A DNA stretch of 64,000 nucleotides, from the NCBI GenBank assembly GCA_016787045.1, contig JAEUVA010000002.1, positions 62,001 to 126,000 of the forward strand. Direction: 5' to 3'. The DNA is from Chitinophagales bacterium (GTDB taxonomy: Bacteria; Bacteroidota; Bacteroidia; Chitinophagales; LD1). The translations under genes were made by a program, and so were the position numbers. The notes under the pieces were generated by a model, which was not told where the DNA came from, searched no databases, and worked only from the letters and a program-made list of their open reading frames with translations. Positions 3,858 through 63,928 of this stretch are shown in pieces; within the stretch, counting starts at the first letter, position 1, and each line of letters begins with the position of its first letter.

Positions 3858-6800
3858 TTACTTCATCAATGTTAAGCTGCCTTTATACAATTCTTTAGCA
3901 TGGTTGTTGGCAAAAACTATTTGCATAGTGTAAACCAACACCTGCGGTTCTAGGGGGGCTCCTTTGTAACTGCCATTCCATTTAAAGTAGATGTCGTTAC
4001 TCTCAAATACTTTTTCACCGGTGCGGTTAAAAATCATCACCTCTATGTACTTTACCGCTGCTTTGTTACCGTAGTATTCAAAATAATCGTTTTGCCCATC
4101 GTTGTTTGGCGAAAACACATTAGGAATAAAAATATCATAATTGGGGGTAACAGTAACTGCGTAAACAGTACCAGCCTCACAAAGGTTGCCATTGATATCT
4201 ACCACTGCTTGTACAATATATTGCATGGTGTAGTTGTAAGCGAAAATGGGTGCAGGGCAGTTGTAACAACTTAGCCCCAATGCTGGAGTCCAGTAAAACT
4301 GCGCATTGGAGTAGTTACTGCTGGCGTTAAGGGGCAGTTCTTCGCCTAATTGCACAAGTGCCGGAGCAGGATTCACAGACAAAGTAACTTCATTTGGCTC
4401 CGAAATCTGAACAGAAGCTCCATCTGTACAGCCGTTGGCATCGGTTACGGTGTATGAATAGTTGCCTGCCGATAACCCACTAAATACACCATTGTTGTTG
4501 TTTGAAGCATTGCTAAACTGATAGGTATATGGAGCCACGCCACCATTTGAAGTTACAGTTACTTGGCCATCTGATAATCCGTAGCAACTCACCATTTCTA
4601 AACTGAAAGATGAAACGAGCAAACTGGGCTCATTGATAGTTGCGTTTGCGGTATTGCTGCATCCAAAAGCATCAGTAGCACTAATAGTATATGCCCCGGC
4701 AGAGAGGTTAGCAAATTGCCCTGTAGTATTTGCGGCTATCGGGCTACTGCCTTGCAGCAAAGAGTATGCATAAGGGGCAAGTCCACCTGTTGCGTTGGCT
4801 TGTATTGCACCGGTATTATCTCCATTGCACAATACATCAGTTATACTTGAAGTTAGCACCGGGTTTAAAACTGTTAGTTGAGTTTGAATGGTGCTATCAC
4901 ATCCATTAACTGTAGAAAGTACCACAGTATAACTGCCGCTATTACTTACAATGTTTCCATCGGGTAGAGTATAAGTTGACCCATTACAAATGGTATCTAA
5001 AACGGTTACAGTATAAACTGGATGCACTGTTAAGTAAGTTACCACTATGCTGTCGCAACCTAAAGAAGTAGCAAGTGTATCGGTATAAACTCCTGTAGTA
5101 TTTACACTGCTTCCATCGGGTAGGGTGTAAGTTTGGTTGGCGCAAACAGTATCATACACATTGGTGATGGGCGAAGGATTTACCGTTAAGTGTGTAACCA
5201 CCACACTATCGCAGCCCAAAAATGTTTGTAAAAGTGCAGTATCGCTAATGTTTACAGTAGAGGTATTTCCTCCGGGAAATGTATAGGTATTACCCTGGCA
5301 AATAGCGGTATCAATTACGGTATGATACACCGGGCTTACTGTTACAACAACTGTGTCGGTAACATTACATAGACCCACAAACGAAACATCATCTATTGCA
5401 AAATCATTGCCGCCACCTGTGGTATTTTGGTTCACAATACAAATGTTGGCGGTGGTATTACTCCCTGAGTTCCAAACCGTGTAAAACTGTTGCCATTGGC
5501 AAACTGTAGGAGTAAGATTAAATGGAGACCCAAGCAAACCACCATTGATAGAAAATTGTAGAATAGCAGGACTGCCACCGGTTACACTAATTCCCCAGCA
5601 ACTAAAGGCATAGTCGGTATTGGGCACTACACTAATGCTTTGGCACCAAACACTGGTATTGGCAGTACCCGCCCCATTTACAATCATCATATTGCCGGTG
5701 CCGGTAGTATGGTCCGGGCAAGGCGAAAAGCTGCTATGGTAAGTATTTGGATTATTACCAATATAATAGTTGCCGGCTGGTAACAAATTGGCATCATAAG
5801 TGTAACTGCTGCTGAAGCCCGCATTTCCTGATTCAAAATCACCATTAACAATTAAATCTGAAGAGGCAGTTTGTGAGGTTACTACATAAGTGGTGGTAGA
5901 TGCCGGGTAGGCAATAGGATTGGCAACAGATGTATCGCTTAATCCTGCAGAAGGTGTCCAACTGTAGGTAAATAAACCTCCACTGGCTTGTAGTGGAGTT
6001 GAATCGCCTAGGCAAATAGCCACATCGCTGCCAGCGTTTATTGTTGGATTTACAATGGTTAGGTTTATGGTGTAGCTGCTGTCGCAACCCGTAGAACTGG
6101 TCAAATTAACTTGATAAGTACCACCTACACTTACGTTATTACCATCAGGTAGTTGATAGAGGTCATTTGGGCATATAGTAGGGTTATTGGTAAATTGATA
6201 AGTGGGATTAATAGCTACTGATATGCTTTGCGCTGCGGTGCAGTTATTCTCGGTTACAGTAACTGTGTATGTGCCAGATGCCAATGTGGTGCTATTTTGT
6301 AAAGTGGCATTTTGCTGAACCGAAGCAAACCCGTTTGGCCCAGACCAACTGAAAGTACTGCCCGGCAAGTAGCTTCCGGAGGCGTTCAATTGCAAGGTAG
6401 CAGCTGCACAAATAGGAGCGTTGCTACTAAGTAGTGGGGTGTCTATCGGATTAAATGGCGTACTGCTTTCGGGAACAGATAACCCTTGTAGTGTAATGCC
6501 ATTTTGCCCTGCACTTGCACCGTAGCTATTGCCATAGCTGGTAGCAATACCCGGCTGTCCTCCGGTGTTGATTACGGTTACGTTTGCCGGCAGAGCATTG
6601 GTGCTCCAAACCACACCACCGCCACCACCACCGCCCGGGCCATGTCCGTTGTTTCCACCGCCATTACCGCCATGCACGTCTATAGTTAAGTTGCCTATAA
6701 AATTATTTGCACTTAATAAAACCGTACCCGCTCCACCGGCTCCACCAGAGCCATCGGTGCTGGAGGCAATAGCGTTTTGAGTAAATGCCTTTATAGCTCC

Positions 6801-9023
6801 ACCGTTAGTGGCTATCTGCGCAGATTTGATAAATACAATTCCAGCCCCGTTAGTACCGGGTGTTGCAGTAGCATCGTTTTGATGGCCACCACCGGCACCA
6901 CCACCCAAAAAGATTTTATTGTTGGCATTGCTGTAAACCAAGTTTAGCCCACCATCGCCACCAATAGGTATAGAGGGGCAGCCGCCCCATTGATTGCCGC
7001 CTCGGCCACCGGTGCCGCCATTTCCACCACCCGCACCGCCTGAATTAGTATCGTTTCCACCACCGCCACCATTGGCATTTTTCCCCCTTCCATTAATAAT
7101 ATTGGTAGGCAACTCAAAAATACCTTCCCCTTTCCGGCCACCATATTGTGAGGTAATATCGTAGAAATAATCTTGCTGATTGCAGGTGTAAGCCATGTTA
7201 AGCGATACCACACCGGCTCTAAATCCGAGATTACTCGCATCTACATCGGCATTGAGTGTTACTGTACCGCTGGCTTCCATAGCTATTATTCCGCCTATGC
7301 TACCATTCCAAGCAGGGCAGGTGATAGGGGAGGTAACCAACACATCAGTGTATTGTGGCACTCGTACCAACTGCACTGCTCCACTTATGGTGTAGCTACG
7401 TAGTATGGTGTTCAAAAACTGAATATTGTTGCCATTTATGGATGCCACAGTAGCCATTTCGTAATTGCCGGCATTGTTGTAGTTGGTTACATGGCCAAAT
7501 GCCGCTGTGTTGGTTTGGTCAATACTTGCGCCTTTCATTTGTATGAGCAATACCCTGTCGCCAACGCCAAATCCCGCAGCACTACCTACAGTTATAGAAT
7601 TGGTGCACGGGTCTATGGCTGTAACGGGAGTATAGATATTTATGACTCCGCCTACAGGCGTACCCGGGCAACTGATAATGGTAATGGGCTGCACGGTAGT
7701 GTCGCTTACGCAACCTACAAACCGAATAAGTTGCACATTGTAAGTGCCCGCATTAGCGTAAGTGTGCGTAGGGTTGATTAGCGATGAATAATTAGCTGCA
7801 CCCGATGCGGCATCACCAAAATTCCATTTTACAGAATCAAGTATGGCGGCATTGCTGCTAATGGTAAACGGTAGGGGTGTACCCGAGCAACTATCGGTAC
7901 CAAACGAAATGGTTTCGGTAGTATTGAAATAATTTTGAATAAATGGAGGAAGACCCAGTATGGCATTTCGCCCTTGCAAGTCTATGGCATTAGGTTGGTA
8001 GCCACATCCGGCTCCAATAACATTTGGATTATTTATAGCTGCCAAAAACGGCTGGGCATAGTGGGGCATGTATATTTTACCATCGGGGCCTAATTGTAAA
8101 GCACCTCCACGGTAGGGCGTTCCTGTGCCTGGTGCAGTACCCACATTTTGTGCTGAGGCAATAATGGCAGCCGGGGTTCCGGCTTGCAAATTCCATTGGT
8201 AAATATTACCGGTAGATATTTGCAAGCCATACAGCACCTGATTGTTGGGCGAAAACGAAATACCATAACAATCGGTGGCCTGACCCAGATTTATTGGATT
8301 GGAAACAACACCGGTGGCATTGTTGAAGTCAAGCACTTCAAACCCCACAGCCCGCATAGCTGAGCCCAACTTTAACCCGTCAGAAGAAGGGGTTAGGTAG
8401 CCCCAGCCCGGCCAACCTTCTACACTGCCTACATCGGTAATTACCGGATTTTGTACACCATTACAATCTATCAGGTACGCATAGTAACGGTTGTTGTTAA
8501 ACCCGTGTCCAATAGCCCAATAGTACAATCCGTTAGCATGCCTAACTGCCGCGCACTTTTCTACCGATGGCGTAAAAAGTTGCGTGTTTTTATTTACCGC
8601 CAATACGTCTCCAAAACCTGCATTGAGCGTCATATCTACCTCTGAGTAGCAAAAGCCGCCCGGATTGCCTTGTGCAGCTACTGTGAAAATATAGAACCGA
8701 TTTGGATTGCCTGGGCGAGGCACAATAATGGCTGATTGCGCAGAGGAGGGATCGCCCAATAGCCCAATACCATTGGGCATTTGGTTGTGGTTTCTATCCC
8801 ACACTCTTATGCCATCTGTATAAAAAAGTAGGTTGCCGTTTTTATCGCTAATGGTGGCGCTGCCTTCGGCTGTGTTAAGCGCACCATTGGTGAGCGCCAC
8901 AGGTGTTCCGCTATTGAACGTAACACCAGCCAAAGAGCCAAAATACCAGTTGTTGGCTTCGCCTTGTGAGTAAACAGATAAATAAAAACCGGCCAATGCC
9001 AGCAGGAGTAAAATTTTATTCAT
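3858..9023 (-). CDS. Giant exported surface protein with PKD, Gly-rich, SprB-type repeats and T9SS-type C-terminal sorting domain
   Basis: The protein has 1721 residues. A signal peptide covers about residues 1-20. Residues 25-365 form a beta-rich domain (NWYFGS, LLFYTDGIRVWD) seen in Bacteroidota surface proteins. A PKD-like domain lies at about 375-450 (WNFGD, HTYANAGTYNVQL). A very glycine-rich region spans about 628-805. Four related Cys-containing modules of about 52 residues (pattern YTLPDG ... GCDS ... LTV) sit near 941-993, 1231-1283, 1284-1335 and 1336-1388. Two SprB-type repeats follow at about 1392-1466 and 1467-1543. Residues 1629-1721 (FIPNVFSPNNDGQNDYFE to the end) are a gliding-motility-associated C-terminal domain of the CHU_C type, expected to route the protein through type IX secretion. 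An adhesin or matrix role is inferred; the ligand is unknown. Confidence 0.92.
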   Translation of the reverse strand: MNKILLLLALAGFYLSVYSQGEANNWYFGSLAGVTFNSGTPVALTNGALNTAEGSATISDKNGNLLFYTDGIRVWDRNHNQMPNGIGLLGDPSSAQSAIIVPRPGNPNRFYIFTVAAQGNPGGFCYSEVDMTLNAGFGDVLAVNKNTQLFTPSVEKCAAVRHANGLYYWAIGHGFNNNRYYAYLIDCNGVQNPVITDVGSVEGWPGWGYLTPSSDGLKLGSAMRAVGFEVLDFNNATGVVSNPINLGQATDCYGISFSPNNQVLYGLQISTGNIYQWNLQAGTPAAIIASAQNVGTAPGTGTPYRGGALQLGPDGKIYMPHYAQPFLAAINNPNVIGAGCGYQPNAIDLQGRNAILGLPPFIQNYFNTTETISFGTDSCSGTPLPFTISSNAAILDSVKWNFGDAASGAANYSSLINPTHTYANAGTYNVQLIRFVGCVSDTTVQPITIISCPGTPVGGVINIYTPVTAIDPCTNSITVGSAAGFGVGDRVLLIQMKGASIDQTNTAAFGHVTNYNNAGNYEMATVASINGNNIQFLNTILRSYTISGAVQLVRVPQYTDVLVTSPITCPAWNGSIGGIIAMEASGTVTLNADVDASNLGFRAGVVSLNMAYTCNQQDYFYDITSQYGGRKGEGIFELPTNIINGRGKNANGGGGGNDTNSGGAGGGNGGTGGRGGNQWGGCPSIPIGGDGGLNLVYSNANNKIFLGGGAGGGHQNDATATPGTNGAGIVFIKSAQIATNGGAIKAFTQNAIASSTDGSGGAGGAGTVLLSANNFIGNLTIDVHGGNGGGNNGHGPGGGGGGGVVWSTNALPANVTVINTGGQPGIATSYGNSYGASAGQNGITLQGLSVPESSTPFNPIDTPLLSSNAPICAAATLQLNASGSYLPGSTFSWSGPNGFASVQQNATLQNSTTLASGTYTVTVTENNCTAAQSISVAINPTYQFTNNPTICPNDLYQLPDGNNVSVGGTYQVNLTSSTGCDSSYTINLTIVNPTINAGSDVAICLGDSTPLQASGGLFTYSWTPSAGLSDTSVANPIAYPASTTTYVVTSQTASSDLIVNGDFESGNAGFSSSYTYDANLLPAGNYYIGNNPNTYHSSFSPCPDHTTGTGNMMIVNGAGTANTSVWCQSISVVPNTDYAFSCWGISVTGGSPAILQFSINGGLLGSPFNLTPTVCQWQQFYTVWNSGSNTTANICIVNQNTTGGGNDFAIDDVSFVGLCNVTDTVVVTVSPVYHTVIDTAICQGNTYTFPGGNTSTVNISDTALLQTFLGCDSVVVTHLTVNPSPITNVYDTVCANQTYTLPDGSSVNTTGVYTDTLATSLGCDSIVVTYLTVHPVYTVTVLDTICNGSTYTLPDGNIVSNSGSYTVVLSTVNGCDSTIQTQLTVLNPVLTSSITDVLCNGDNTGAIQANATGGLAPYAYSLLQGSSPIAANTTGQFANLSAGAYTISATDAFGCSNTANATINEPSLLVSSFSLEMVSCYGLSDGQVTVTSNGGVAPYTYQFSNASNNNNGVFSGLSAGNYSYTVTDANGCTDGASVQISEPNEVTLSVNPAPALVQLGEELPLNASSNYSNAQFYWTPALGLSCYNCPAPIFAYNYTMQYIVQAVVDINGNLCEAGTVYAVTVTPNYDIFIPNVFSPNNDGQNDYFEYYGNKAAVKYIEVMIFNRTGEKVFESNDIYFKWNGSYKGAPLEPQVLVYTMQIVFANNHAKELYKGSLTLMK

Positions 9024-26331: not shown

Positions 26332-26493
26332 GGTTTTGGTTAATTTGGGTGTGCTAAAATAACCCAATCCATTAACTGCGAAACAGGATTGGTTCTAGTG
26401 CTTTAGTGTAATGTTTTCAACTAATTCATCTGTTTTCTTACTGTTTGTACTAAGATTAACAATTCTGCCTTACAAAAACATTAAGTTTATACG

Positions 26494-29400
26494 GTGAAAT
26501 ACATCTGCCTTACATGGTTTTGTATTTGTAGTGGGTTGCTTTCTGCGCAAACCACCGAGCGTGGTGCTGTGGTAACCAACACATCTACCACAGCCACTGG
26601 CAAAGTGTATGCTTTGATAGTTGGGGTATCTAAATATACCGAAGTAACTCCCTTAAAGTTTGCCGACCGCGATGCCTTGGCTTTTGCAGATTTTTTGAAA
26701 TCAAAAGCAGGTGGCAATGTGCCCACAGATAACATTCGTGTTTACACCAACGAGGATGCTAACCGCGCAAATATTATTGATGAGTTATATAACCTCAAAT
26801 CTACTGTGCAGAGTGGTGACTTGCTCTATTTTTATTTTGCCGGACACGGAGATATTGAACAAGAACTTTCGGAAGGAGAAGATGCCCTGTTGCTACTCTC
26901 TAAATCGCTGAACAGAAACTATTTGAAAGGAAGCGAGTTTATTGAATTGGACAAACTGCGTGGTTATATCAGCAATTTTGCCAAGAAGGGAGTTAATGTA
27001 GTGTTTGTGGCTGATGCCTGCCACAGTGGTGCCATGCTCAGTGGTGGCAGCAGTGGCAAAGAGCGTACTCTTTCTGCATTGCAAGAGGCATGGAGCAATG
27101 AAGTAAAATTGCTCTCCTGCCAACCCAACGAGGTATCAGAAGAAAGCCCAAAGTGGGGTGGGGGGCGTGGCGTGTTTAGCTACGTGCTGGAAGACGCACT
27201 TAAGGGAATGGCAGATGCCAACAATGATAGTGTAGTTACCGTTGGAGAGCTAAAAAGATATATTGAAAATGAAGTAGCCCGCCAAACAGGCGATGCGCAA
27301 AACCCGCACATTACCGGTGATCCAAAGCGAAGAATCAATGTAGTAGATATGCCAACACTACTGGCACTAAAGGAGCAGAAGAAGCAGACCCTGCCTGAAA
27401 TGATAGCCATGAATGCCGGCAGAAGTTTAGAAGATAATATGTTGGCCACTGCTACACCAGATGTAAAAGAGAAGTACGCAAAGTTTAAAGATGCACTTGA
27501 AAAAGGTAATCTACTACAACCCAAAGGCAAATCAGCTTACGATATTTATACATGGCTAAGCGCATCTGATGCCAGCGCGGAAGTGAAAAGAATTACCAAG
27601 CGTAATCTTGTTTCTGCACTACAAGATGGTGCTATGGTGTTTATCCAAGAGCAGTTGGGTGGCAAAAAAGATGCAGACAATTACAACGAGAAAGTGGTGC
27701 GGGAACAATTGGCGAAATGGCAAAATAGTATTGATAATTTAGATACTGCCATAGCCATTTTAGGAGAGGAGCACTACCTAACATCTTCTTACAAGGCGCG
27801 CAAACATTATTTGCAAGCATCGGTTTTGTATTACAAAATTACCAACTATACCCGTGAATACACGGTAAGTAATCGCGATTCATGTATCAACCATCTTAAA
27901 CTGGCTATTTCCTTAGAGAATAATGCCAGCTATGCGCACTATCTGTTGGGTAGTTTATATTCATTTTGCCATCGTAACGATTCTGCTCGTATAGAATTTG
28001 AAAAGTATATGAAGTTAAACCCCAGAGATGGGTACGCCTTTGCAGATATAGCTGTGCTGGAGAGCCGTAAAGGCAACAAGGATATAGCCGATAGCTTATT
28101 GGCAGTAGCAATAAAAGTAGGATCAAATCAGATGGATGAATTTATGAACCACATAGCAAGCTATTACTATGTGCGCGATGAGTACGAGCAAGCCAAAAAA
28201 TATTTTTTTAAAGCATTAGAGTATAACCCTGATTTTAGTTCGGCACACCTCAACCTGGGTGTTTTGTTTAAAATACAAAAAGACTACGATAAGGCACTTT
28301 ACCATTATGGCAAAGTGCTGAAGTATGATTCGGCTTACGCATGGGCTTACAACAATATGGCTAACATCTATTTGATTCAAAAAAAATACGATATAGCCAA
28401 AGAGTATTTTGGAATGGCAATAAAGTTTGATAGTACCTACCATACGGCATACACTAATTTGGGTATTTTGTATGAAGATAGGAACGATTACAATACAGCT
28501 TTTAGGTTATATCATTTGTCTAAATCTATTGAGCCGTACTATGAAAATAACTACTACGGTATTGGAAACGTACACTACAATCAACAGCGATACGATAGCG
28601 CAGAACTGTATTACTACTACTGCATACAATTAGATTCAAACTATTACAGTGCCACAAATCAGTTAGCTAATACCTACCGAAAAACCAACGAAACCGATTT
28701 GGCAGAGTATTACTACAAAAAGGCCGCACTAATTGATACCACTAAAGCCGGACCTTATGTTGGTTTAGGTCATTTAAAGTTTGATGCCAAACTATACAAT
28801 GAAGCAGCTACTTACTACAGTTGGGCATTATTGAAAGATACTACAGATGCAGATTATTGGTACAACTTAGGCAGGGCATGGCAATATGCAGATAGTACAG
28901 ATTTGGCAATCAAAGTATATCGTAAAAAAGTACTAAAAATTGATAGTGCGTATTCTGCGGCTTACAACAACATTGGTATTATTAATTACAGGAAAGGCAT
29001 ATACGATACTGCTCTTTGTTATTATCGCTCAGCATTAAAATTTGATACTTGTTACACTAGTAGTTTGTACAATTGCGCATTGATATATGAAAAGAAAAAT
29101 GAAATAGATAGCACCCTGTACTACTACAAAAAGTGCATTCAATGCGATTCTACATATTCATCGGCTTACAGTGCATTAGCCACTTTTTACAACGATAGCT
29201 ACCGCCCCGATAGTGCAATTAAGTACTACGCTCTGTATATTAAGCACGCAATGGAGTATGACTACGATGCCACTTACAGTTTGGCTTATCTATACCTAAC
29301 TAAAGATGATTCTTTAAATGTGTTTAAGTATTGCAGTTTAATCTTGCAGAATGATTCAGCGAATGTAGCTGCCCGCTATTTGATGGCCTCTGCTTGTCAA

Positions 29401-29967
29401 AACAAAGGCAATTACAACGCGGCTCGCAAGTACTACAAACAAATAGAGAGCGATGAAGGATTTGGTAAATATGTACTATATCAGTATGGTGCTATTGCAG
29501 AAACTATTGAGCAGTACGATTCTGCACTTTATTACTACAAGTTAGCGCTTGCGTTAGATTCTCTCAATCCTGACTACTTAAACAGGGTTGGGCAAACTTT
29601 GGGCTACCGGCTTAAAAAGTACGATGAAGCATTTACGTATCATGCTGCCGCTTTAGATTATGACTCCTTTAATCAAAAATATACCTACTCATATATTGCC
29701 TACAATTATTTCTTAAAAGGCGATATGTCACAAGCCATTGAATGGTATAAAAAAGCAATAGAGTTAACGCCACTGCAAGATATGGCCTACTACAACTTAG
29801 CTTGTATATACTCTCTCCAAAAAAACGACAAGGATGCACTATTGTTTTTAGCCGGAGCGCTTAAAAATGGATACCGCGACTTTGAACACATGAAAAAGGA
29901 CACGGATTTAGACCACATACGTTCGCTGCCCGATTACAAAAAGTTGTTGCAGCAATACGCCAAGTAA
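26494..29967 (+). CDS. Exported caspase-family peptidase with a long TPR array
   Basis: The 1157-residue protein starts at a GTG with a signal peptide (residues 1-19, ending LLSAQ). Residues about 36-285 are a caspase/metacaspase (peptidase C14) domain with the catalytic dyad His118 in YFYFAGHGD and Cys176 in FVADACHSG, so it should be active with a preference for basic or acidic P1 residues that cannot be told here. Residues about 464-1148 are a continuous array of roughly 20 Tyr-rich TPR repeats. The signal peptide implies action in the periplasm or outside the cell. A role in stress response or regulated proteolysis is inferred. A histidine-kinase gene starts 97 bases downstream. Confidence 0.92.
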   Translation: MKYICLTWFCICSGLLSAQTTERGAVVTNTSTTATGKVYALIVGVSKYTEVTPLKFADRDALAFADFLKSKAGGNVPTDNIRVYTNEDANRANIIDELYNLKSTVQSGDLLYFYFAGHGDIEQELSEGEDALLLLSKSLNRNYLKGSEFIELDKLRGYISNFAKKGVNVVFVADACHSGAMLSGGSSGKERTLSALQEAWSNEVKLLSCQPNEVSEESPKWGGGRGVFSYVLEDALKGMADANNDSVVTVGELKRYIENEVARQTGDAQNPHITGDPKRRINVVDMPTLLALKEQKKQTLPEMIAMNAGRSLEDNMLATATPDVKEKYAKFKDALEKGNLLQPKGKSAYDIYTWLSASDASAEVKRITKRNLVSALQDGAMVFIQEQLGGKKDADNYNEKVVREQLAKWQNSIDNLDTAIAILGEEHYLTSSYKARKHYLQASVLYYKITNYTREYTVSNRDSCINHLKLAISLENNASYAHYLLGSLYSFCHRNDSARIEFEKYMKLNPRDGYAFADIAVLESRKGNKDIADSLLAVAIKVGSNQMDEFMNHIASYYYVRDEYEQAKKYFFKALEYNPDFSSAHLNLGVLFKIQKDYDKALYHYGKVLKYDSAYAWAYNNMANIYLIQKKYDIAKEYFGMAIKFDSTYHTAYTNLGILYEDRNDYNTAFRLYHLSKSIEPYYENNYYGIGNVHYNQQRYDSAELYYYYCIQLDSNYYSATNQLANTYRKTNETDLAEYYYKKAALIDTTKAGPYVGLGHLKFDAKLYNEAATYYSWALLKDTTDADYWYNLGRAWQYADSTDLAIKVYRKKVLKIDSAYSAAYNNIGIINYRKGIYDTALCYYRSALKFDTCYTSSLYNCALIYEKKNEIDSTLYYYKKCIQCDSTYSSAYSALATFYNDSYRPDSAIKYYALYIKHAMEYDYDATYSLAYLYLTKDDSLNVFKYCSLILQNDSANVAARYLMASACQNKGNYNAARKYYKQIESDEGFGKYVLYQYGAIAETIEQYDSALYYYKLALALDSLNPDYLNRVGQTLGYRLKKYDEAFTYHAAALDYDSFNQKYTYSYIAYNYFLKGDMSQAIEWYKKAIELTPLQDMAYYNLACIYSLQKNDKDALLFLAGALKNGYRDFEHMKKDTDLDHIRSLPDYKKLLQQYAK

Positions 29968-58196: not shown

Positions 58197-58240
58197 ATAA
58201 TATTTTGTATGGATTTGCGTTTTGTTTGCATCTTACGCTT

Positions 58241-61200
58241 GTGAAATTTTTCTACGCCACCCTATTTGTAGTGCTTTCTTGCTTCTTGTTTGCACAAAAA
58301 GGCGACTTGCGTAAAGAACTTCGGCACAGTCAATACACCTACATTTACAAAGTCCCCGCTGCACATGCTGCTCAGTTTTTAAAGCGAAGTATTAAGCAGC
58401 CGGAGCATATTTTATCTTACTTGTGTGTAGATTCTTTTAATACAGACTCATCGTACCAAAAAACATTGCCGGCCGGTCATTATTTATTTGTGAAAGCAAC
58501 TGGTAAAATGCTAGATGTACAATACAAGCACGTAACTAACTTGTGGGTAAATGCACTACCGGATGTGAAGCGAGTAAAGTTTTTGGTGCATGATTTCAAC
58601 CAAGTACCCGTCATCAATGCGGAAGTAAAACTGGGTTTGCGTAAAACAACTTACAATACCCTTGATCAAGCGTACTTGTTGCCTTACCACGGAAAGAAAA
58701 GGTGGCTAAACATTGCTGTGCCGGGCGATACCACTTTTTTCTGGTTAAATAAGAAAGAGGACGATTACTATAGTAAACCCACGGCATTAGATATACTGCG
58801 AAGAGCATTTGTATATCCGTTTCAGCGCTTAAAGTATAAGCTAACACATCTTGCAAATAAGAGAAGTGAGTACGATGGTTATATAGTGTTTAACAAACCC
58901 AAGTACATGCCGGGCGATACAGTAAAGTTCAAAGCATACATTACTCAGCACAACGGCAAGCCATACACAGAAAATGCGATGGTGAAGGTAGGTGAACGGT
59001 GGTATGGTAAAGAAAAGATACTAATGAATGAACTAAAGCCCGTATCTGATGGGGCTTACTTTTCTGAATTTGTGTTGAACGATTCTTTTCAGATAGATAA
59101 AACATATCAACTTAAGTTATTCAACAGCAAAGAGAGATTACTCATAGAGGGTTATTTTAAAACAGAGCAATATTTGTTAGACGCTAACTCGTACACTGCA
59201 GCTGCCGATAAAGAAAACTACTATCCATCAGACTCTATACAAATTACCATTAATGCCACCGATTTTAACGGGCTACCTGTTATGGATGGAACTGCAAGAT
59301 TGGTGGCAAAAACTTACCGTATAGAAAAGTACTATAGTAAGCAAGTTTACACTCCCGACACACTTTTTAAAGCTGAAAAGAGGTTAGATAATTCCGGCAA
59401 AACAAATTGGAGTTTTTCTACCACACACTTCCCCAAAGCAGACCTGCAAATACAGTTTAAAGTAAGTTGCGTAAACAGCAACAACGAGTTGTGGGATACT
59501 ACATTTACCGTTAACTATAAATACAGCAAGCGCGAAGTAAAAGTTGTACAAAAGAATGATTCAATTGTTGCCAACTATTGGGTAAATGGGAAAGAAACCC
59601 TTGCCACAGGCCGTTTGTGCATTGCCGGAAACTGCAAAGTAATTTCGTACCCGTATGCACAAAAGACAAACCCTTTGCATAGCATATATGAGTTTTATGC
59701 GCAAAACGATTCGGTAACGTATGATTTTTCTCCAAACTATGCCGATGCAATGAGTTGTATGGTGCTGCGCACAGATACCACCGCTTCTTTTATCGTCATA
59801 AATCCTGAAAGAATTGGTTTCCACTATCAGATTTTTAAAGGAGGCAAGAGCATAGAGCAGGGTATAGCAGATACACTGCGAAGACACTTTGTTGATGCTA
59901 CAGATGCAGCTTATGTTTTAGTGGTAAAATATATATGGAGAGGAAACGCAGAGCGAAAAGTTTGGCAGGCGGACAAAAACAAGAGCCAACTGATTATAGA
60001 AACTGTTCATGATGGGGAGGTTTTCCCCGGCCAACTAGATACCATTACCATTAAAGTAACAAAGCACGATAACCAACCCGCTCCATCCGTCAATCTTACG
60101 GCTTGGGCTATCAACGCTCAGTTCGCTAAAGATATTACAACGCCAGAGCTACCCAACTACTACCATCCTAAAAAATTCAACAAACTATTTGTACAGTCGC
60201 AGTTAGCTAAGCCCGATTTTTCTGCAAAATTTATTTTGCACAAGTTCTTAAATTGGCGCTACCGATTGCAATTGCAGCAACTTCCGTATTATCAAATGGT
60301 TTATCCTGCCGCTTCTGCCACTATCTATTTAGACTCTACTTCTTTCGCATCTCCTCAGTATGCGCCCTACATTTATCAAAATGGAAAACAGGTAAAAATT
60401 TATGGTATAACAATAGATGGCAGGTTAGTGTATTCTTGGTTGAATCAACTTTCTGCCCCCTACAGTTTTGTATTAAGTCCGGGGTTTCACCGGGTTCAAA
60501 TTCGTACTCAAAAGCACTTGTTTTTGTTAGATAGCGTGATGGCGCCTATAGGCAAAAAAATGGAAGTGAGTTACCGGTATGATTCACTCCTTGCACAGCA
60601 GTCGTTTATTTCTTGTAAAAAGCAATTGAGTACCTCAGAAGTTAATGTACAGCGCAATGCACTCCTGGTATTAGATGCAAAAAAAATGTATTGGTATGAT
60701 TTGTGGCTATCACAAGGCAATAGGGTTTTTCATAAAAAAAGCAGCGACAATAACTACGAAACCGCATTAGTTGGTCCGTTTGGTTACGATTCAATAACTG
60801 TGTTTAAGGAAAATCACTATTCAAACAGTAAGCCATTTGAATTTTCGTTTGTGCCGGAGCGGGGCTATGCCTATAGTTTTGAAAGCAATAAACAGCGATT
60901 GGTTGAGCATCAATTGTTTGAAAAGAAAGTAAAGTTGAAAGAACTTTACAATGTTTCCGATATGTTGTTTGGAGAAATTGCACTGCCGGCACCCCACTTA
61001 CCGCCTGCACAGAAACCAAAGCAGAAATACTTCTTAGATAATTCAGTGTCGTCAACTACTTCACGCACTGGTAAGTTAGAGGTGCGTATTGTTACTGATT
61101 CTACTTTTGCTTATCTCCATCTGCTCAAGTTAGATACCTGTAATTATAGTAAGTTGCTCAGCGGTACATGGCGAACTTTTCATGCTTTAGATTCCGGCAG

Positions 61201-63928
61201 ATACATTCTACGTTACTATACTGAAAGTGGCAGTTATTTTGAAACACCACCAGTTACAGTACTTCCTTTTGGTACCAATTTTTATGAATGGAAACCCGAT
61301 TCGCTCAGCCAAAAACTTGACTTGAAAGCGTTGTTGGGTAGCAAGCGCACAGATTCATCGGCCATTGGCGGGGTTTACCATCAGCCACAGATATTTACAG
61401 GAGATGCATCACTCACCGGCTTAGTAACCGATGAAGCGGGTGAGCCGGTAGCTTTTGCCTCGGTGGTTTTACGAAAAAACAATGAAGTGATAAAAGGCGG
61501 CACCACTGATTTTGATGGGCGTTACAGCATAGCACAGGTGCCCGATGGAGTGTACGAACTTCGCGTGAGTTTTGTGGGGTACAAAAATATTGAACGAAAA
61601 GTTGTTTTGAAAAACGATCAACTTTTAGAGCAGAATGTAACTCTCATTCCTTCTCAAAATGAATTGAAAGAAGTGATGATAGTAACCGATAGGTACATGG
61701 CACCATTGAAGGAGCAAAGTGTTTCTTTAGCCACGTATGCAGTTTCCGGGGTTTCTATAAAAGGAGCCAGAATGGCTAATGGCAATGTGCGCTTTGCACC
61801 ATCAGAGTTGGAGAGCGTTGCCTCTTATGGCTATAGTGATGTTCGTAAGCCAAGTAAAGGCACCTACACTTATTCGCTAAATCCAACTACATTGGAGGAA
61901 GGTGAAGAGGATAAGCAATATCGTATGGTTACCGATAGTAGTGGTAACACATACGCCTGGTTGGGCGCAGATGGAAAAAAGAAATTTGAAGAAGATAAAT
62001 ACAAAGGTGCCAAGTCATTACGCAATGCCTTTAGCGATTATGCTTATTGGCAACCTAACTTGATTACAGATGCTACCGGCAAGGCGAGCTTTGCTGTGCA
62101 ATACCCGGATAATCTAACGGCTTGGCAGGCATACATACTTGCTATGGATGGCAAAAAACACAGCGGGCAATCATCGTTGTATGTACGTTCTTACAAAGAT
62201 ATGAGTGCCTCACTGAGTGTGCCACAGTTTTTGATAGAAGGCGATAGCGGCAGTATAGTTTGCCGCATCAATAATTACACGGCAGATACACTTACCCCCA
62301 CTGCCTCCTACAAGTTGAATGGAGAGTTGCTGATGAGTAATGCCGTAAAGGTGAAGGGCGCTCTTTCAGAAATTATTGCCATTAAAGCCCCCCTTTTGTT
62401 GTCAGAAACAGATACATTAAAACCGCAGTTTGGCATTTCGTTACCGGGTGGCTTTGCCGATGCAGAAGAGAGGAGTATCCCCGTTTTGAAACAAGGTACT
62501 GAGGAAGCAGATGGTGTGTTTATGGTTTTGCGAGCCGATACTTCATTTACCTTTACCCCAAGTGGTGGCAAAGGCAATGTAACCTTACATGCCGAGAGCG
62601 ATGTGCTGCAACTGATGCTGCGCGATTTAGAACAACTGAAAAATTATCCGCATTGGTGTACCGAGCAAACGGCATCTAAGTTGATTGGGCTGTGCCTGCA
62701 ACAGCGCATTGACTCGCTGCTGGGCAAAAAATCTGTTCTGGTAAAAGAAAAAGCTAAACTTCTAAAAAAACTGCAAAGCATGCAATTGTTTAGTGGTGGT
62801 TTTGGCTGGTGGGAAAACGCGCCTTTTAACGCTTACCTTACCAATCATGCGCTAAAAGCCATGTACATGGCTGGCGAAAAAGAAAGCAGTAGTTATGCCC
62901 TGCGCACCGCTAAAAAAATGATTCAGGATAACTTGCAAAGTTTGAGTGTAGGCGAAAAATTGGCAGCGCTGCAAACCATATCTGTTTATACCAATGAAAA
63001 AGAATGGGTGGCTTTTCATTTGAGGCAGTTTCAGTTTGATTCGCTGAGTACCATTGACCAACTGCAATTGGTGCACACTCAATTACTTTGCGGCATTGAT
63101 AGTGCAGCTTACCAACAAAAAGTATTGAGCAAACAAAAAACAACAGCGTTTGGTGGCGTGTACTTTGGTGATGATACCTATTCGTTTACCACCAATTCTG
63201 CCGCAGCAACAGTTTGCGCTTACAAAATTGCTGAGTTGCTCGGCAACCAATCTCTACAAGATGCTACTTTAAGCTATTTAATAACTACCCGCAACCATAG
63301 CGGTTGGAGAAATACTTTTGAAACAGCAGAAATTCTTAGCGCAGTGCTACCACAAGTGATAAAAACAAGAGGGGGAAAAATGACTTCACCGAAGTTGAAC
63401 ATCAATGGTGATGCCGTGGTGGCCTTTCCTTACACAAAAAAATACGAACCCAACCAAGAACTGCGCATTAGCAAAACCGGTGATGGCCTGTTGTTTTTTA
63501 CTGCGTATCAAAAATGGTGGAATACAAAGCCACAACAGAAAGCTGATGTGTATGAAATACAAACCTCTTTAGCTCAAAACGGTAACCCGCTCACCAACCT
63601 CAAAGCCGGTGAGCCGGCAGAGCTAAAAGTAAAGATTACCGCCAAGAACTTTGCAGAGTATATTAGTATAGAGGTGCCTATTCCGGCCGGTTGTACTTAC
63701 TACAAAAAAGATTTCCCTAAAATGCAAGGAGAGATTCATCGGGAGTACCACAAAAACAAGGTGATGATTTTTTGCGATAAACTAAATGCAGGTACACACG
63801 AGTACCGAATTTGGATAGAGCCGCGATTTTCGGGGGGCTATACACTAAACCCAGCTCGTTGCGAGTTAATGTACTTTCCTACAATTTATGGCCGAAACGA
63901 AATCAAAAAGATTAACATCGCACCCTAA
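58241..63928 (+). CDS. Alpha-2-macroglobulin-family protease trap with an inserted CarboxypepD_reg-like domain
   Basis: The protein has 1895 residues from the GTG at 58241, with a signal peptide (KFFYATLFVVLSCFLFAQ). An MG2-type domain starts near residue 215 (YIVFNKPKYMPGDTVKFKAY). A carboxypeptidase-regulatory-like domain lies at about residues 1057-1135 (TGLVTDEAGEPVAFASVVL). The A2M domain follows (YWQPNLITDATGKASFAVQY), then the thioester domain with Cys1473-Thr-Glu-Gln1476 in HWCTEQTASKL. The intact CxEQ motif means it could trap proteases covalently. Bacterial relatives protect the envelope. An upstream ATG at 58205 would bury the signal peptide. A lipoprotein gene starts 11 bases after it. 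Confidence 0.93.
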   Translation: MKFFYATLFVVLSCFLFAQKGDLRKELRHSQYTYIYKVPAAHAAQFLKRSIKQPEHILSYLCVDSFNTDSSYQKTLPAGHYLFVKATGKMLDVQYKHVTNLWVNALPDVKRVKFLVHDFNQVPVINAEVKLGLRKTTYNTLDQAYLLPYHGKKRWLNIAVPGDTTFFWLNKKEDDYYSKPTALDILRRAFVYPFQRLKYKLTHLANKRSEYDGYIVFNKPKYMPGDTVKFKAYITQHNGKPYTENAMVKVGERWYGKEKILMNELKPVSDGAYFSEFVLNDSFQIDKTYQLKLFNSKERLLIEGYFKTEQYLLDANSYTAAADKENYYPSDSIQITINATDFNGLPVMDGTARLVAKTYRIEKYYSKQVYTPDTLFKAEKRLDNSGKTNWSFSTTHFPKADLQIQFKVSCVNSNNELWDTTFTVNYKYSKREVKVVQKNDSIVANYWVNGKETLATGRLCIAGNCKVISYPYAQKTNPLHSIYEFYAQNDSVTYDFSPNYADAMSCMVLRTDTTASFIVINPERIGFHYQIFKGGKSIEQGIADTLRRHFVDATDAAYVLVVKYIWRGNAERKVWQADKNKSQLIIETVHDGEVFPGQLDTITIKVTKHDNQPAPSVNLTAWAINAQFAKDITTPELPNYYHPKKFNKLFVQSQLAKPDFSAKFILHKFLNWRYRLQLQQLPYYQMVYPAASATIYLDSTSFASPQYAPYIYQNGKQVKIYGITIDGRLVYSWLNQLSAPYSFVLSPGFHRVQIRTQKHLFLLDSVMAPIGKKMEVSYRYDSLLAQQSFISCKKQLSTSEVNVQRNALLVLDAKKMYWYDLWLSQGNRVFHKKSSDNNYETALVGPFGYDSITVFKENHYSNSKPFEFSFVPERGYAYSFESNKQRLVEHQLFEKKVKLKELYNVSDMLFGEIALPAPHLPPAQKPKQKYFLDNSVSSTTSRTGKLEVRIVTDSTFAYLHLLKLDTCNYSKLLSGTWRTFHALDSGRYILRYYTESGSYFETPPVTVLPFGTNFYEWKPDSLSQKLDLKALLGSKRTDSSAIGGVYHQPQIFTGDASLTGLVTDEAGEPVAFASVVLRKNNEVIKGGTTDFDGRYSIAQVPDGVYELRVSFVGYKNIERKVVLKNDQLLEQNVTLIPSQNELKEVMIVTDRYMAPLKEQSVSLATYAVSGVSIKGARMANGNVRFAPSELESVASYGYSDVRKPSKGTYTYSLNPTTLEEGEEDKQYRMVTDSSGNTYAWLGADGKKKFEEDKYKGAKSLRNAFSDYAYWQPNLITDATGKASFAVQYPDNLTAWQAYILAMDGKKHSGQSSLYVRSYKDMSASLSVPQFLIEGDSGSIVCRINNYTADTLTPTASYKLNGELLMSNAVKVKGALSEIIAIKAPLLLSETDTLKPQFGISLPGGFADAEERSIPVLKQGTEEADGVFMVLRADTSFTFTPSGGKGNVTLHAESDVLQLMLRDLEQLKNYPHWCTEQTASKLIGLCLQQRIDSLLGKKSVLVKEKAKLLKKLQSMQLFSGGFGWWENAPFNAYLTNHALKAMYMAGEKESSSYALRTAKKMIQDNLQSLSVGEKLAALQTISVYTNEKEWVAFHLRQFQFDSLSTIDQLQLVHTQLLCGIDSAAYQQKVLSKQKTTAFGGVYFGDDTYSFTTNSAAATVCAYKIAELLGNQSLQDATLSYLITTRNHSGWRNTFETAEILSAVLPQVIKTRGGKMTSPKLNINGDAVVAFPYTKKYEPNQELRISKTGDGLLFFTAYQKWWNTKPQQKADVYEIQTSLAQNGNPLTNLKAGEPAELKVKITAKNFAEYISIEVPIPAGCTYYKKDFPKMQGEIHREYHKNKVMIFCDKLNAGTHEYRIWIEPRFSGGYTLNPARCELMYFPTIYGRNEIKKINIAP

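Follow-up and report, generated by a model that had tools for sequence, protein, structure and literature searches.

Bacterial caspase homologues are mostly discussed as proteins of the cytosol that act in stress, death or defence, and as such a gene that appears to place a caspase outside the cytosol, joined to a long helical scaffold, raises the question of what an enzyme of this kind would do there and whether it is an exception. The gene lies in a 64,000-nucleotide stretch of DNA from a Chitinophagales bacterium, the whole of which is referred to here as the window. A preliminary description made from the sequence had read it as an exported caspase with an intact catalytic dyad and about 20 TPR repeats, possibly associated with a neighbouring kinase. 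The architecture is real, and it belongs to a large recurring Bacteroidota family.

Gene structure and features

The open reading frame at 26494-29967 (+ strand) was verified exactly, and encodes a product of 1157 aa from a GTG start. Inspection of the frame places an in-frame TAA at 26482, and GTG 26494 is therefore the first start. Among the candidate starts in frame it is also the only one from which a signal peptide is obtained, and the orthologues begin at an equivalent place, which together uphold the start codon originally proposed. A promoter scan gave a score no better than those of shuffled sequences. The features are as follows.

26494..29967, + strand: coding sequence of the predicted exported caspase-TPR protein, 1157 aa; GTG start; same layout in orthologues of two related genomes
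26494..26547, + strand: predicted signal peptide, residues 1-18, MKYICLTWFCICSGLLSA followed by Q, without lipobox; from the sequence, the strict rule described below and the orthologues
26560..26565, + strand: Arg23-Gly24, [RK]G motif, candidate self-processing site; [RK]G in 42/77 homologues
26605..27354, + strand: caspase domain, residues 38-287; PF00656 E=1.4e-18; AlphaFold metacaspase fold, Z 23
26671..26673, + strand: Asp60, predicted S1-pocket acid; invariant in 65 homologues; aligned with a yeast Mca1 Asp
26845..26847, + strand: His118, predicted catalytic residue; invariant in 65 homologues
27013..27015, + strand: Asp174, predicted S1-pocket acid; invariant in 65 homologues; aligned with a yeast Mca1 Asp
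27019..27021, + strand: Cys176, predicted catalytic residue; invariant in 65 homologues
27355..27927, + strand: helical linker, residues 288-478; from the models; no Pfam match in the stretch tested
27928..29880, + strand: 19 TPR units, residues 479-1129; repeat scan, Pfam TPR_1 and full-length model
29785..29952, + strand: TPR end-of-group domain, residues 1098-1153; NF047558 E=5.9e-18, 64.6 bits, cut-off 32

The caspase domain

His118 sits in a GHGD motif and Cys176 in DACHSG, and as both are present and invariant in 65 of 65 homologues, the intact dyad of the preliminary description stands. Asp60, Asp174 and Glu217 are likewise invariant in these homologues, which are 25-67% identical. Searched in isolation, the domain matches PF00656 with 67.9 bits (E=1.4e-18, cut-off 21.4), and so belongs to caspase family C14. 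The full-length Pfam scan misses PF00656 and a whole-genome PF00656 search misses the gene too, while a protein search recovers it; the likely cause is presumed to be the HMMER composition filter acting on a Tyr-rich repeat protein. Given that a domain of 68 bits is missed in the full-length protein, counts of bacterial caspases that rely on scans of full-length sequences may be too low where the proteins are rich in repeats. The best NCBIfam match for the protease domain is to the EACC1-associated caspases (NF047832), membership of which was rejected at 69.3 bits against a curated cut-off of 140; those proteins also differ in being members of conflict systems, whereas the window protein is predicted to be exported and is without an associated NTPase system. 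Membership of the CHAT proteases (PF12770) was rejected at 19.6 bits against a cut-off of 24.

An AlphaFold model of residues 19-460, built from the 65-sequence alignment, returns a caspase fold with confidence (mean pLDDT 87.9). The domain matches metacaspase 4 with a Z of 23.0 (rmsd 2.7 over 218 residues), which identifies the caspase-hemoglobinase fold, and among solved structures metacaspases and the bacterial protein GSU0716 match best, followed by MALT1, caspase zymogens and legumain (Z 19-23). Furthermore, the model aligns with metacaspases and procaspases past p20, through 269 of its 442 residues, which suggests a p10-like part beyond p20.

In alignment, Asp60 and Asp174 each fall opposite an Asp of yeast Mca1, and we take these two positions to be acids of the S1 pocket, as in metacaspases. 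The specificity-pocket Cys of metacaspases (TbMC2 Cys92) is not kept; judged by its spacing to Asp60, the equivalent residue appears to be Ala57, found in 64/65 sequences. This Cys has been named as a pocket residue, and every characterised member of C14 apart from the caspases cleaves at Arg or Lys in P1, owing to an acidic pocket (PMC5756287). Considering the invariant dyad and pocket acids together with the C14 precedent, the best prediction from the sequence, despite Ala57, is that the domain is probably an active protease that would cut after Arg or Lys, and not after Asp.

Export signal and N-terminal motif

The N-terminus, MKYICLTWFCICSGLLSAQTTERG, comprises Lys, a hydrophobic run and a Leu-Ser-Ala|Gln junction with the lipobox absent, and such an arrangement of Lys, hydrophobic run and junction is typical of Bacteroidota signal peptides. 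Two close orthologues carry signal peptides of diverged sequence at the equivalent position (MKRLYFIIFALGLLATAMAQ... and MQRIVLLLFIIASLWVSAQ...), and because these start at an equivalent place, both the GTG start and the function as a signal peptide are supported. Under a strict signal-peptide rule, to which the window protein conforms, 64 of 77 homologues are positive as against 33% of other ORFs on the same contigs; this rule supersedes an earlier permissive one that was weak, being satisfied by 69 of 77 homologues and by 55% of control ORFs. The signal peptide first noted from the sequence is thus retained, and we infer export across the inner membrane from it.

An [RK]G pair lies between the signal peptide and the first strand in 42 of the 77 homologues, and several tandem arrays have it in the form Q-x-[RK]-G. 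In an enzyme with a predicted basic P1, Arg23-Gly24 could be a site of self-processing, and this stays a lead only, because the modelled segment has low confidence. No conserved basic residue that could serve for autoprocessing was found in the loop that follows the catalytic Cys, where K or R occurs at positions 186-191 in 2-25%. The N-terminal motif, in the form [RK]GA, also precedes internal caspase domains that follow other domains (L048:2773-4500 and L042:345-3554).

The TPR scaffold and linker

The scaffold of about 20 repeats and some 685 residues in the preliminary description is real, its dimensions being slightly revised here: a repeat scan resolves 19 TPR units at residues 479-1129, in a scaffold of about 680 residues. 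Pfam TPR_1 matches with E=4e-41 in the full-length scan, and regular TPR helix pairs are seen in a full-length AlphaFold model built from 10 sequences (pLDDT 82.2); as the pTM of this model is 0.47, it is no reliable guide to where the caspase lies with respect to the solenoid. The best rows of a Foldseek search with the full-length model hold only helical-repeat proteins, with no protease-plus-TPR chain among them. The motif LGE.HY was considered as a universal signature of the linker and rejected, being present in close relatives only. The TPRs may recruit substrates or regulators, as had been proposed, and the pattern of divergence in the tandem paralogues described below fits such a role.

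Distribution of the family

Export of the caspase had been presented as an exception, and this is not borne out. All eight caspase-domain proteins found in the source genome have export-type N-termini (judged by eye), and so look exported in a class of protein otherwise mostly placed in the cytosol; their partners are TPRs (three), a WD40 propeller (two), DUF4384 (one) and a glucodextranase-type domain (one), the eighth protein having no other match. A first scan of genome contigs with a single-protein query gave no matches. A profile search found a homologue in 153 of 398 sampled genomes of the order, and a phylum-wide sample, searched with another profile at a stricter threshold, gave a match in 39 of 395 genomes, both counts resting on the caspase-plus-linker part and not on the TPRs. 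Homologues also occur in Cytophagales and Flavobacteriales; those that could be named belong to Chitinophagaceae, Saprospiraceae, Runella, Winogradskyella, Bizionia, other Flavobacteriales and a Kapaibacterium MAG. Where the frame ends inside the contig, at least three TPRs were counted in 45 of 68 homologues as against 13 of 214 controls, with a count model tuned to the window protein. Within the genus itself, 3 of 18 species yielded an orthologue, some of the rest being incomplete assemblies.

Parts of this picture are on record. A 2012 survey of 671 bacterial metacaspases lists TPR among the most frequent partner domains, describes N-terminal helices as probable signal peptides, and gives a record copy number of 28, in a Bacteroidota genome (PMC3501461). 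In view of this survey, of the eight proteins of the source genome and of the distribution of homologues, what first appeared surprising is a family trait that was partly known. No experimental work on the exported caspase-TPR family was found in the literature searched. As a separate observation, another exported caspase-TPR gene overlaps a DUF6531/RHS-repeat gene by 4 bases in a pair kept in two species (L046:2477-7218 in G000:C49 and L052:3032-7776 in G008:C9).

Tandem arrays

In other families of the order, genes of this type stand in tandem, with nine consecutive same-strand exported caspase-TPR genes on contig 19 of one genome (G173) and five on contig 2 of another (G350). Arrays with a conserved caspase and diverged TPRs are found at the following loci.

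G173:C19:105000-132000: L172 and L173
Further loci: L175, L176/L177 and L174

Across four sets of neighbouring paralogues, the caspase has a mean identity of 61-82% as against 27-34% after the linker, a contrast that we have not found on record for tandem paralogues; for the orthologues of the window gene the corresponding values are 71% and 51%, with a TPR range of 46-58%. We read the tandem pattern as fitting an envelope system in which the protease is kept constant and its recognition arms vary, as far as comparison of the paralogues can suggest. Faster neutral drift of the TPRs, and the lower identity that results when unequal numbers of repeats are aligned, could account for part of the contrast; as TPRs in any case change more quickly than enzymes do, divergence alone is no proof of recognition. 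The Saprospiraceae-like caspase islands share neighbours in two genomes (L174:6098-10050 and L177:907-7711), namely a membrane protein, with a class III nucleotide cyclase domain in L174, and small exported Cys-containing proteins.

Discussion

The protein described here resembles several known systems in part. The closest solved folds are those of Arabidopsis MC4 and MC9 and yeast Mca1 (Z 19-23), in which both acidic pocket positions are aligned; these eukaryotic metacaspases differ in being 18-22% identical, intracellular and without TPRs, and their pocket Cys is not kept in the window protein. The TPR-CHAT protein of Craspase and separase also join a caspase-clan protease to a TPR or helical solenoid. 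In these cytosolic proteins the solenoid precedes the protease, whereas the window protein has the protease first, the solenoid after it, and an export signal. Gingipains (MEROPS C25) are exported caspase-clan cysteine proteases of Bacteroidota with a basic P1, of a different family and secreted by the type IX system via a C-terminal sorting domain. Such a domain was not found in the window protein, whose C-terminus consists of TPRs and the TPR-end domain with no CHU_C or sorting-domain match, and it was rejected as a type IX cargo. Prokaryotic caspase homologues (metacaspases and orthocaspases; PF00656, MEROPS C14) have in common with it the fold, the His-Cys dyad and the acidic pocket, and also combine with TPRs and possible signal-peptide helices (PMC3501461). 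Those described or tested are mostly cyanobacterial and p20-only (PMC5756287), unlike the window protein with its signal peptide, p20 and putative p10-like region, linker and 19 C-terminal TPRs, and with Ala in place of the pocket Cys.

The gene, its modelled fold, the invariant dyad and pocket acids, the TPR solenoid and the recurrence of this architecture are established, and the best explanation that we can offer for them, to which we give an even chance, is a soluble, Sec-exported caspase-fold protease of the envelope with its specificity set by the TPRs. The protein would be exported through Sec as a soluble protein of the cell envelope, most likely periplasmic. There its caspase-fold domain would act as a catalytically competent cysteine protease, for which cleavage after Arg or Lys is predicted. 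The solenoid of 19 TPRs at the C-terminus would bind partners or substrates, and in so doing would set the specificity of an otherwise conserved protease by selecting either the proteins to be cut or the position of the enzyme. The replacement of the metacaspase pocket Cys by Ala57 counts against this explanation. The distribution points to an accessory role more than to an essential one, and the arrays in which the TPRs have diverged point to recognition; neither is decisive. An extension of the same explanation, which we consider quite unlikely, is that in the envelope of Bacteroidota conserved caspases with fast-diverging TPR arms form a repertoire, expanded in tandem in related families, that would survey the periplasm for particular proteins and, having recognised them, would cleave them or send a signal. 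Knowing the targets would clarify the role of caspases outside the cytosol, and whether the tandem copies form such a repertoire.

This explanation has two main rivals, in which the protein serves the envelope either as a housekeeping protease or in defence. The former, a somewhat doubtful reading, posits a housekeeping or stress-responsive enzyme whose TPRs dock on an envelope complex such as secretion, gliding or assembly machinery, with no recognition repertoire, and which matures or removes envelope proteins. It would be in keeping with the match of the TPR part to general TPR models, including those of envelope TPR proteins, and with a gene that is single in the source genome and whose orthologues keep all parts. 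However, the patchy occurrence of the gene in the genus counts against such a reading, tandem expansion as seen in the other families is atypical of housekeeping genes, and no conserved envelope gene adjoins the three orthologues.

It is unlikely that the protein serves in defence or conflict at the envelope, with TPRs that would recognise incoming phage or toxin proteins and a caspase that would cleave them or trigger damage. Such a role would suit the patchy distribution and the tandem arrays of genes whose TPRs have diverged; conflict systems proposed for bacteria repeatedly contain caspases and TPRs (PMC7159879), and the PADLOC caspase model matches (65.5 bits, E=1.3e-18). This match is to the bare domain, however; beside the caspase in the window neither an NTPase switch nor a nuclease nor any other gene of defence was seen, and the caspases of the conflict systems described so far are for the most part linked to cytosolic NTPases. 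That the caspase fold serves for binding only, as a pseudo-enzyme scaffold, is very improbable, for although bacteria are well known to have inactive homologues of caspases (PMC5756287), the dyad and pocket acids are invariant in every one of the 65 homologues.

The suggestion that the caspase forms one signalling unit with the adjacent PAS histidine kinase and response regulators is the hardest to credit, and we consider it extremely unlikely: the kinase lies on the same strand at a gap of 97 bp, but its orthologues (57-60% identity) are on other contigs in both related caspase-carrying genomes, no kinase adjoins the caspase orthologues there, and of the 77 loci with a homologue just 2 have a kinase or regulator match. 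Judged by conservation, the proximity is due to chance. To the earlier question whether exported caspase-TPR fusions recur next to kinases in other Bacteroidota, the answer is that the fusions recur and that the adjacency is not conserved.

Two further genes of the window may be recorded. The one at 58205-63928 encodes a large protein of alpha-2-macroglobulin type, a class able to trap proteases, that carries a CarboxypepD_reg domain, and a SprB-repeat/PKD protein of 1721 aa with a type IX secretion domain is encoded at 3858-9023.
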